Assembly (NCBI RefSeq): GCF_001187785.1
Contig: NZ_CP012154.1
Coordinates: 1,172,501-1,236,500, forward strand
Source: Wenzhouxiangella marina
GTDB lineage: Bacteria; Pseudomonadota; Gammaproteobacteria; Xanthomonadales; Wenzhouxiangellaceae
DNA length: 64,000 nt
Direction of reading: 5' to 3'
A program made the position numbers and the translations under genes. Position 1 is the first letter of the stretch; each line of letters starts with the position of its first letter. A model generated the notes under the pieces. That model did not search any database, was not told the origin of the DNA, and saw only the letters and a program-made list of their open reading frames with translations. Shown here piece by piece: positions 22,818 to 62,493 of the stretch.

Positions 22818-23824
22818 GGCGAACGGTCCGGCGCCAGGGTGGCACGCAGGTTCCAGCTCTCCGCCTCCAGGCCCTGGCTGGCGAGATGCCGGGTCAGGGC
22901 TTCGCCGTTGCCGTGGATCGTGATCACCCGGCCTGCGTTCATGTCGGCGGCGGTTCCGACCAGGCCGGGCCAGTCGGCATGGTCGGACAGGACGAAGCCG
23001 CGGTCGTAGCCGCGGCGACGGCGGTTGCCGCGAATGCGCATCCAGCCCGAGACGAAGCCCGCCGAGTGCCCCTTGAAACGCCGCATCCAGCTCGAGCCGG
23101 CGGCCGAGGGTGGCGCCAGGATCAACTGGCCGCGAAAGTCCTCCTGCGGGTCGGCTTCGCTGATCAGTCGAGTGGGCGGCAGGGCGATGCCCTGCTCACG
23201 GTAGCAGTCGGTCAAGGGGCGCATGGCGCCGTGCAGCCAGATCGGCTCGTCGACCCCGGCGCCGTGAAGTTCGGCCATCACTCGCTGCGCCTTGCCGAGG
23301 GCATAGCAGAACAGCACGGCGGGCCGCCCTTGAGCGCGACAGGCCTGCCACCAGTCCAGCATCTCGGCGATCACCTGGTCCGTCTCGGGCCAGCGATAGA
23401 CGGGCAGGCCGAAGGTGCACTCGCTCAGCCAGACATCGCAGTCGAAGGGCTGGAAGGCCTCGCAGGTGGGGTCCGGGGTGCGCTTGAAATCGCCGGACAC
23501 CCCCCAGGTGCCTTGCGCGGATTCGATGCGCACCGTGGCCGAACCCAGGATGTGGCCGGCCGGGAACAGGGTGATTCGGGTCTCACCCAGCTCGATCGGC
23601 TGGCCGTAGTCGAGGCCGACCAGATCCTCGGGCTGGCCGATGCGATGGGTGAGTACCGGCAGGCCCGCTCGCGCCGTGAATACCTCGGCGGCGCCAGCGC
23701 GCGCGTGGTCGGCGTGGGCATGGGTGATGATCGATCGCGGCACCGTTCGGAGCGGATCGATCCAGAAATCACCCGCGCGACAGTAGAGGCCGCCCGCATC
23801 GGGCACCAGTAGAGACTCGGTCAT
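22814..23824 (-). CDS. Ligase-associated DNA damage response exonuclease (MBL/beta-CASP fold)
   Basis: This 336-residue metallo-beta-lactamase-fold nuclease resembles SNM1/Ysh1 proteins. The zinc-binding signature THAHADHA lies near residue 35, followed by HILGSA and later a beta-CASP region with LSDHADWPGL. Family members degrade DNA ends. It is the first gene of the four-gene operon. The ATG at 23824 has no obvious ribosome-binding site. The 130 bases upstream hold a Fur-like box, a promoter and a terminator-like hairpin, so expression of the whole repair operon might pass through that leader. Confidence 0.92.
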   Translation of the reverse strand: MTESLLVPDAGGLYCRAGDFWIDPLRTVPRSIITHAHADHARAGAAEVFTARAGLPVLTHRIGQPEDLVGLDYGQPIELGETRITLFPAGHILGSATVRIESAQGTWGVSGDFKRTPDPTCEAFQPFDCDVWLSECTFGLPVYRWPETDQVIAEMLDWWQACRAQGRPAVLFCYALGKAQRVMAELHGAGVDEPIWLHGAMRPLTDCYREQGIALPPTRLISEADPQEDFRGQLILAPPSAAGSSWMRRFKGHSAGFVSGWMRIRGNRRRRGYDRGFVLSDHADWPGLVGTAADMNAGRVITIHGNGEALTRHLASQGLEAESWNLRATLAPDRSP

Positions 23825-23880: not shown

Positions 23881-23951
23881 AAAAATAACGCCCCGGCCTG
23901 GAGGAGGAGAGAGAGCAGGAGAGTCGGCCGGGGCGGTGAGCAAACTGTGAT
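23881..23951 (-). ncRNA. Candidate Fur-controlled small RNA or leader attenuator
   Basis: Transcription from the promoter at 23956-23984 would begin near 23948-23951. The RNA has a short unpaired 5' end, then CGCCCCGGCC (23935-23926), a 27-base pyrimidine-rich loop containing CUCUCUCUCCUCCUCC, then GGCCGGGGCG (23898-23889) and UUAUUUUU. The 10-bp GC stem with a T-run resembles an intrinsic terminator. Its large CU-rich loop is complementary to Shine-Dalgarno sequences, as in known gammaproteobacterial riboregulators with C/U-rich loops. The hairpin lies 57 bases before the exonuclease gene, so it may instead attenuate that operon. Nothing identifies it as a known RNA family. Confidence 0.5.
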
Positions 23952-23954
23952 GCG

Positions 23955-23973
23955 AACGATAACGATTATCGTT
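23955..23973. promoter_or_regulatory. Fur-like box
   Basis: AACGATAA, three bases, then TTATCGTT form a perfect 8-bp inverted repeat of 19 bp overall. It resembles the 19-bp Fur box and its GATAAT-type hexamers. It is shared between the minus-strand promoter and the divergent membrane-protein gene beginning near 24014. Confidence 0.65.
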
Positions 23974-23984
23974 TCATAAGTCAA
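23956..23984 (-). promoter_or_regulatory. Sigma-70-like promoter on the minus strand
   Basis: TTGACT (23979-23984) and TATCGT (23956-23961) are separated by exactly 17 bases. The Fur-like box at 23955-23973 covers the -10 element and most of the spacer, the usual place for repression by iron-loaded Fur. Confidence 0.6.
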
Positions 23985-24013: not shown

Positions 24014-25294
24014 ATGCTTCTGGCCATGGAATCAGGCTTGGATTGGGTCTATCGACTGGGCGTCGCACTGGCGATCGGCATGATGATCGGCAGCGAGCGC
24101 GGCTGGCAGCGACGGGAAGCCAGCGAGGGCCAGCGTTCGGCCGGGCTTCGGACCTTTGCCCTGTTCGGCCTGCTGGGCGGTCTGAGCGGCCTGCTGGCGC
24201 GCGACTTCGGTCTGCTGCCGGCCGCCGTCATGTTTCTCGGCCTGTCCCTGCTGATGGCCAGCATGCACCTGGCCCACGCGCGTGAGGATCACGACCTGGG
24301 GGCGACGACCGAGGTCGCCGGCCTGATCACCTTCCTGCTCGGCCTGCTGGCCGGCCTGGGTGAACTGGCGATCGCGTCGGCGACGGGGGTGATCACGGTG
24401 GTCGTGCTGGCTTCCAAGCACCAGATGCACGGTTGGCTCGCCCGCCTGAGCCGACCCGAGCTGGTGGCCGCGCTGAAGTTGCTGGTGATCTCGGTGGTGC
24501 TGCTGCCCCTGTTGCCCAATCAGGGTTACGGGCCCTGGGGCAGCCTCAATCCGTACGTGATCTGGTGGATGGTGGTGCTGATCGCCAGCATTTCCTTCGT
24601 CGGCTACTTCGCCGTGCGCCTGGCCGGTGCGCGGGCCGGGATCGCCTTCACCGCCCTGTTCGGTGGCCTGGCCTCGTCGACGGCCGTGGCCATGCACCTC
24701 TCCCGCCTGTCCGCTTCCGGTCAGGCCCGTCCGCGGCTGCTGGCGGGCGGCATCCTGCTGGCCTGCGGCACCATGTATCTGCGCCTGCTGATCGTCGCCA
24801 GCATCGTCGAGTTCGGCCTGTTCCGCGCCCTTGTCATGCCGGCTGCGGTGATGGCCGTGCTTGTACTGGGCGCGGCGGCCTGGTTGATCGGGCGCTCGGG
24901 CCGTGAGGAATCCGCCGGCCCGATCCACCAGTCCAATCCGCTCGAACTTGGCTCCGCCCTGGTCTTCGGCCTGCTGCTGGCCCTGGTCATGCTGCTGGGC
25001 CAGGCGCTGACCCACTGGCTGGGCGATGCCGGGGTCTACCTGCTCGCCGCCGCCTCGGGGGTGGCGGACGTCGATGCCATCACCCTGTCCCTGTCGAGAA
25101 TGGCCGGCGAGGGCCTGTCGATCGAAGTGGCCACCCTGGGCATCCTGATCGCGGCGGCGGTGAACTCCATGGTCAAGGCCTCGATCAGTCTGAGCATCGG
25201 CGGGCGCCGCAGCGGCCTGCCGGTCATGCTGGTGCTGGCTCTCGCCTCGATCGCCGGTCTATTGATCGCCTGGCTGGACGGGAGCCTGATCTGA
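24014..25294 (+). CDS. MgtC/SapB-type membrane protein with DUF4010 domain
   Basis: This 426-residue, very hydrophobic protein has about a dozen predicted helices. The N-terminal 140 residues carry the MgtC/SapB pattern, including ALAIGMMIGSERGWQ and RTFALFGLLGGLSG. The rest is the DUF4010 domain, with FGGLASSTAVAMHLSRL and a C-terminal pair of helices. The family sits in the inner membrane, and transport of a divalent cation has been suggested but not shown. The start could be ATG 24014 or 24026; neither has a good ribosome-binding site. A Fur-like box lies 41 bases upstream, so metal-dependent control is plausible. Confidence 0.85.
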   Translation: MLLAMESGLDWVYRLGVALAIGMMIGSERGWQRREASEGQRSAGLRTFALFGLLGGLSGLLARDFGLLPAAVMFLGLSLLMASMHLAHAREDHDLGATTEVAGLITFLLGLLAGLGELAIASATGVITVVVLASKHQMHGWLARLSRPELVAALKLLVISVVLLPLLPNQGYGPWGSLNPYVIWWMVVLIASISFVGYFAVRLAGARAGIAFTALFGGLASSTAVAMHLSRLSASGQARPRLLAGGILLACGTMYLRLLIVASIVEFGLFRALVMPAAVMAVLVLGAAAWLIGRSGREESAGPIHQSNPLELGSALVFGLLLALVMLLGQALTHWLGDAGVYLLAAASGVADVDAITLSLSRMAGEGLSIEVATLGILIAAAVNSMVKASISLSIGGRRSGLPVMLVLALASIAGLLIAWLDGSLI

Positions 25295-61993: not shown

Positions 61994-62293
61994 ATGAGCA
62001 ACGCGAACGAACCGGTCACGGTCCGAATCCTGGAGCGCGAGTACCGCGTGATGTGCGCGCCGGAGCAGCGCCGGGCCCTGATGGAGTCGGCCCTGTTCCT
62101 GGATCACCAGATGCGCGAGATCCGGGATTCCGGGCGCATCTCCTCGATCGACAAGATCGCGGTCATGAGTGCGCTGAACCTGGCCGAAGAGGTCCTCAAG
62201 CTCCGTCAGCAGCTCGCCGATCGCGAAGAAATGATCGACCGCCGCGTTCGTCAGATGGCGATCGAGCTTGATCAGGGTCTGCCCGGGGATTAG
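61994..62293 (+). CDS. zapA: Cell division protein ZapA
   Basis: This 99-residue protein opens with VTVRILEREYRVMCAPEQRR, the ZapA globular head, and continues as a coiled coil with IDKIAVMSALNLAEEVL. ZapA cross-links FtsZ filaments at the Z-ring. It lies just ahead of the 6S RNA gene, which is the widely conserved arrangement. Confidence 0.93.
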   Translation: MSNANEPVTVRILEREYRVMCAPEQRRALMESALFLDHQMREIRDSGRISSIDKIAVMSALNLAEEVLKLRQQLADREEMIDRRVRQMAIELDQGLPGD

Positions 62294-62303
62294 ACTGGAT
62301 ACA

Positions 62304-62493
62304 GGCGCTCTCTGCGGTGTTCGCCAGCAGGAAAGTAATATGCCTTGTCCCTACTTATCGACCTCGGGACGGCGCCTTTCATCGCTGGTGTGCCGGTCGC
62401 GTAACCGCGAATGGCCTGAAGGCGTGAAGAGCCGACCCACTTGAACCTCTGGTTCAAGGTCACCGACCTGCAGCGGCACAGGCGGAGAGCGCC
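62304..62493 (+). ncRNA. ssrS: 6S RNA
   Basis: A roughly 190-base RNA between zapA and the cyclo-ligase gene. The ends pair (GGCGCTCTC near 62304-62312 with GAGAGCGCC near 62485-62493). TGTTCGCCAGC follows the 5' arm as in known 6S RNAs. The conserved hairpin CTTGAACC-TCT-GGTTCAAG is at 62440-62458, with CCTGCAGCGGCA after it. 6S RNA mimics an open promoter and holds sigma-70 RNA polymerase in stationary phase. Exact ends are approximate. Confidence 0.9.

Follow-up and report, generated by a model that had tools for sequence, protein, structure and literature searches.

The locus described here lies on the minus strand of a 64,000-nucleotide stretch of the Wenzhouxiangella marina genome (the window, by which we mean this whole stretch; the genome is a single contig of 3,675,202 bases). 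Direct reading and a scan for sigma-70 promoters place a -35 hexamer, TTGACT (23979-23984), 17 bases ahead of a -10 hexamer, TATCGT (23956-23961). The -10 hexamer falls within a Fur-like box, AACGATAATCGTTATCGTT (23955-23973), which forms a perfect 8-3-8 inverted repeat, AACGATAA-TCG-TTATCGTT, and is identified by its match to the consensus and by comparison with shuffled sequences. Behind this promoter, sequence, folding and covariance models predict a small RNA (sRNA) gene of approximately 69 nt (23881-23949), with its start set at the predicted position about 7 nt past the -10 hexamer. Folding leaves the 5' leader (23936-23949) unpaired; it is followed by the 5' arm of a 10-bp GC stem, CGCCCCGGCC (23926-23935), a CU-rich loop of 27 nt (23899-23925) and the 3' arm, GGCCGGGGCG (23889-23898), both arms being supported by sequence, folding and covariation. 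The complete loop, GACTCTCCTGCTCTCTCTCCTCCTCCA, is 85% pyrimidine and holds four CUCC words, which mark it as the likely mRNA-pairing element. The RNA is read as ending in the T-run TTATTTTT (23881-23888), the end of an intrinsic terminator and, given the hfq gene in the genome, a possible Hfq-binding tail. The promoter, inverted repeat, stem, loop and T-run had been put forward in a preliminary description of this DNA, and each is found at its place: the promoter base for base, the inverted repeat over the -10 hexamer, and the stem, pyrimidine loop and T-run in that order.

The RNA of W. marina folds with an energy of -23.9 kcal/mol (z -3.8 against shuffles); a simple terminator scan overlooked its hairpin because that scan accepts only loops of 3-8. 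Farther along the minus strand, the ATG of an exonuclease gene stands at 23824, leaving 57 bases between the T-run and the start codon. A gene for an MgtC/DUF4010 membrane protein (24014-25294, plus strand) is divergent from the sRNA; with its ATG at 24014, it begins some 40 bases away from the Fur-like box, which might therefore act on this gene as well in W. marina. At the far end of the window, a 6S RNA (Rfam RF00013, 87 bits) occupies 62306-62492 on the plus strand, with a zapA-like gene (61994-62293) just before it.

The Fur-like box in its genome

The promoter of the sRNA is the sole sigma-70-like site called within 22-26 kb of the window, where 0.3 would be expected. The box overlapping it agrees with the consensus AATGATAATCATTATCATT at 16 of 19 positions, a score that was never reached when the upstream 130 bp were shuffled 1000 times. 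Sites with no more than three mismatches to AATGATAATCATTATCATT number five in the 3.68 Mb genome and zero in a reversed control. One of these five near-consensus boxes is that of the sRNA; three others precede bfd, which adjoins a bacterioferritin gene, an ABC solute-binding gene and a DUF2061 gene, and the fifth lies near def. The ABC solute-binding protein is assigned by Pfam to SBP families only; by our own reading, it resembles ferric-iron binders. The genome encodes Hfq (103 bits) and two proteins of the Fur family, Fur itself (143 bits) and another (66.8 bits). The sibling boxes before bfd and the ferric-type ABC solute-binding gene point to Fur and iron; on its match to the consensus, the box of the sRNA is very likely a Fur box, and we strongly infer that the sRNA is repressed by Fur and thereby controlled by iron.

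Two of the other boxes can be described on their own account. One (G000:C1:379749-379767, where G000 is the W. marina genome) lies shortly before def, the gene for peptide deformylase, an iron enzyme, and may serve either a divergent promoter or that of def. The other (G000:C1:2650973-2650991) precedes the gene for a DUF2061 membrane protein of 70 residues, which suggests iron control of this uncharacterised protein.

Recurrence of the unit in related genomes

A BLAST search of 101 relatives with the 206-base gap returned matches mainly to the hairpin part, most of them at a distance from the exonuclease gene. When the hairpin was cast as a covariance model, the search identified 11 strong members in 43 genomes of the Wenzhouxiangellaceae, each with the same promoter and box upstream, and a second model that included the box recovered the same 11, one per genome, at E values of 1e-6 to 3e-16. 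The carriers are W. marina and ten related genomes, ten of the 11 belonging to genus g1 and one to g2. The box, promoter and hairpin recur as a unit in these 11 genomes. Both large model searches used stricter filters that could let weak relatives escape; in 398 genomes of the order, the second model found no members beyond the 11. A 30-bit match at the level of the class was an ordinary short-loop terminator, and those matches below about 37 bits that were read all lacked a Fur box, being either coding sequence or terminators of the usual short-loop kind. A scan of the 43 genomes for the pattern TTATCRTT + TCTCC + CGGGG hit the member loci and one chance site only (control, 1). A pattern scan over approximately 85,000 species gave at least 80 matches, the best 25 of which by pyrimidine content were inspected; among the matches listed, promoter, Fur box and CU loop occur together only in those from the Wenzhouxiangella family.

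Several relatives (G003, G011, G019 and G020) lack the sRNA as judged by the covariance models. In a tree built from sdh DNA, the carriers are found in all main branches and the non-carriers are scattered, which is most simply read as the mark of an ancestral gene that has changed position and that some species have lost or have altered so far that it is no longer recognised.

By inspection, all 11 members possess a TTGnnn-16/17-TAnnnT promoter with its -10 element in a Fur-like array; an automatic choice coincided with the inspected promoter in eight of them and in the other three (G001, G013 and G015) favored a different site upstream. The -10 element is TATCAT in most relatives, as against TATCGT in W. 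marina. The best 19-mer box agrees with the consensus at 14-17 of 19 positions in eight members, a score equalled by no more than 3 of 1000 shuffles; in G015, G018 and G001 the matches are weak (13 of 19), and 13-23 of 1000 shuffles are equally good. Fur binds DNA in a repeated-hexamer mode, and the displacement of the -10 by one 6-base unit further along the box array in a group of members like G005 fits this mode of binding. The short distance of some 40 bases to the MgtC/DUF4010 gene and the existence of a second Fur-family gene would fit a box that belongs to that divergent gene or to a different metal regulator, for instance the second protein of the Fur family, with the hairpin being unrelated to it. 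No other member lies beside an MgtC/DUF4010 gene, however, and box and hairpin remain together; with the sibling boxes before bfd and the ferric-type ABC solute-binding gene indicating Fur and iron, we regard this arrangement as highly improbable.

Conservation of the hairpin and its loop

A nine-pair core of the stem is retained in all 11 members, and seven of the 12 pairs of the stem model are invariant; the outer pairs of this 12-pair model often fail. Three pairs, including the outermost, change on both sides, which is above nearly all shuffles, and the compensatory changes convert C-G to U-A in three sequences and C-G to A-U in one. An extra small 5' hairpin is seen in the leader of five relatives, by eye and in single folds. 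The loops measure 25-32 nt, are 62-87% pyrimidine and carry CUCC (anti-Shine-Dalgarno) words in every member. These words persist while loop length and flanks vary; the conserved trait of the loop is its general anti-Shine-Dalgarno character and not an exact sequence. A small protein was considered as the product and set aside, as the RNA has no ATG and the range of loop lengths (25-32 nt) breaks any common frame.

Read on the plus strand, the loop is TGGAGGAGGAGAGAGAGCAGGAGAGTC and contains several GGA motifs, through which the hairpin of an opposite-strand transcript might titrate CsrA/RsmA. The promoter and T-run of the members are on the minus (sense) strand, and within the window no T-run follows the stem on the other strand, so that we find a titrator of this kind scarcely credible.

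Genomic context

The exonuclease gene is downstream of the sRNA in four of the 11 carriers (G000, G006, G016 and G023). The remaining neighborhoods are diverse: an S9 peptidase gene upstream and an unassigned membrane-type protein gene downstream (G005 and G013); a membrane protein gene of that kind downstream, with a solute-binding gene on the upstream side (G001); an ABC solute-binding gene upstream and a convergent glycosyltransferase gene downstream (G015); a GGDEF gene and a convergent glycosyltransferase gene (G018); a glutamate-synthase-like oxidoreductase gene upstream (G027); and kinase/pyrophosphorylase and DUF1249 genes (G030). For the downstream membrane-type protein of G005, Pfam gave no match in the one frame scanned, which was other than the true frame. 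In G015 and G001, the sRNA stands directly behind an ABC solute-binding gene similar to the one that bears a Fur box in W. marina.

The preliminary description had offered as an alternative that the hairpin is a leader terminator of the Lhr-ligase repair operon. On this reading, it would act as attenuator or insulator of the exonuclease-ligase-Lhr operon, the promoter of which would be iron-controlled by chance. The T-run is indeed 57 bases before the exonuclease start on the same strand, and this order is kept in G006, G016 and G023. The alternative nevertheless fails because seven of the 11 members are away from the operon, beside unrelated genes, and two of these (G015 and G018) face a convergent gene. 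We therefore reject a leader terminator as very unlikely. In G001, G005, G013 and G018, the exonuclease gene and the sRNA are on different contigs. The concern raised in the preliminary description, loss of the stem or box in relatives that keep the flanking genes, thus calls for care: these four relatives have no unit before the exonuclease gene and yet carry it elsewhere. By the arrangement of its signals and neighbors, the sRNA is its own transcription unit with an intrinsic terminator, independent of the genes beside it. The proposal of an sRNA gene is upheld by the joint recurrence of box, promoter and hairpin in 11 genomes and in several gene contexts.

Search for targets

Pairing between the loops and the ribosome-binding sites of sodB was slightly stronger for cognate pairs than for shuffled pairs (P ~0.035), a value in which genome relatedness is left in and to which G030 contributes much. 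A longest-seed measure of loop/sodB pairing across genomes was not significant (P 0.15), and in W. marina the loop paired no better with the sodB ribosome-binding site than with an average one (rank 24 of 46 among ordinary sites), so that the cross-genome signal for sodB is weak. A cross-genome comparison of sdhC ribosome-binding sites with the loops gave no signal. The W. marina genome holds 68 sites with GGRGGRGR before an ATG (reversed control, 16), which include, by eye, a pyrH-like and a nuoK-like gene; those of the genes that were read by eye revealed no iron-related pattern.

That these searches gave no convincing conserved target would agree with a Fur-controlled sRNA without chosen mRNA pairing, for example a sponge for another RNA or a protein, or an inert by-product of an iron-regulated promoter. 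We consider this improbable: the anti-Shine-Dalgarno words are kept in all 11 loops despite their changing length and flanks, and one would not expect an inert by-product to retain its box, promoter, stem and loop words as a set while its place in the genome changes.

Proposed mechanism

We think it quite likely that the locus is an independent gene for a trans-acting sRNA of about 70 nt, off under Fur and on at low iron, whose loop pairs with ribosome-binding sites and lowers translation. In the model that we propose, Fur carrying iron would occupy the box that covers the -10 hexamer and so silence the gene; when iron is scarce, Fur would leave the box and the RNA would be made. The single GC hairpin would end transcription and leave its large loop unpaired, displaying CUCC/CUCUCC words similar to the anti-Shine-Dalgarno sequence of the ribosome itself. 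This loop could then pair with target mRNAs at their purine-rich ribosome-binding sites, probably assisted by Hfq on the U-tail, and the lowered translation of the targets would constitute an iron-sparing switch. We infer both the pairing with mRNAs and the use of Hfq. A broader role, in which the terminator loop is an anti-Shine-Dalgarno mimic that competes with 16S rRNA and damps mRNAs with strong Shine-Dalgarno sequences generally during iron starvation, is conceivable and on balance unlikely.

The unusual traits of this sRNA are its very small size, a targeting loop that is apparently inside the terminator, and a control and set of loop words that are kept despite changed position. It makes the specificity of a simple anti-Shine-Dalgarno loop directly testable, and it occurs in a genus that includes a cultured, fully sequenced species.

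Comparison with known systems

Iron-sparing sRNAs of unrelated sequence have arisen repeatedly. Rfam at its gathering score gave no match in the sRNA gap, no match to FsrA was found at the sRNA, and a search at relaxed thresholds that included RyhB and PrrF gave chance-level matches only. In the open literature, we found no small RNAs for Wenzhouxiangella, and our literature searches on this genus and the Xanthomonas group yielded no Fur-driven iron-sparing sRNA.

RyhB of enterobacteria and PrrF of Pseudomonas resemble the present locus in that a Fur box immediately precedes the promoter of the short RNA gene, and differ from it in structure and in the apparent targeting element. The difference in structure had been anticipated in the preliminary description, and Rfam gave no match at any useful score; unlike in RyhB and PrrF, targeting appears to reside in the loop of the terminator. 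BrrF of Burkholderia cenocepacia, whose sequence is unrelated to those of the known Fur-regulated sRNAs, is an sRNA of low-iron conditions that regulates sodB, sdh and others (PMC7377471). It lacks a Fur box immediately upstream and is probably expressed together with hemP, whereas at the present locus the box overlaps the promoter of the sRNA itself.

Further parallels are found among RNAs that act through C-rich motifs. FsrA of Bacillus subtilis is described as Fur-repressed and as targeting Shine-Dalgarno sequences with a C-rich motif (PMC9410917), and the Wenzhouxiangella RNA shares the Fur repression and C-rich anti-Shine-Dalgarno pairing predicted here; FsrA belongs to the Bacillota and needs the FbpABC chaperones, whereas the RNA described here is a single hairpin whose gammaproteobacterial host encodes Hfq. 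IsrR of Staphylococcus has Fur boxes in its promoter, pairs through C-rich unpaired regions near Shine-Dalgarno sequences and is conserved through one genus (PMC9410917); at 174 nt, with three hairpins and a terminator, it contrasts with an RNA of about 70 nt whose motif is in the terminator loop. In sX13 of Xanthomonas, C-rich loops act on G-rich motifs near translation starts (PMC3771888). C-rich or CCUCCUCCC anti-Shine-Dalgarno words are displayed in hairpin loops of sX13 and of the alpha-r14/cuckoo RNAs of Rhizobiales (PMC3771888, PMC10746234, PMC3927594), which have three or more hairpins and for which we found no report of Fur or iron control in these sources. The cuckoo RNAs are defined there by three hairpins, each with CCUCCUCCC in an unpaired region (PMC10746234); the W. 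marina RNA has one loop-bearing hairpin, and its loop lacks CCUCCUCCC. Since C-rich pairing is known in sX13, FsrA and IsrR, the Wenzhouxiangella sRNA would by analogy block translation when iron is short. It is not a member of the RyhB, PrrF, FsrA, IsrR or cuckoo families, and probably represents a new Fur-repressed family that acts on ribosome-binding sites in the manner of FsrA, IsrR or RyhB/PrrF.
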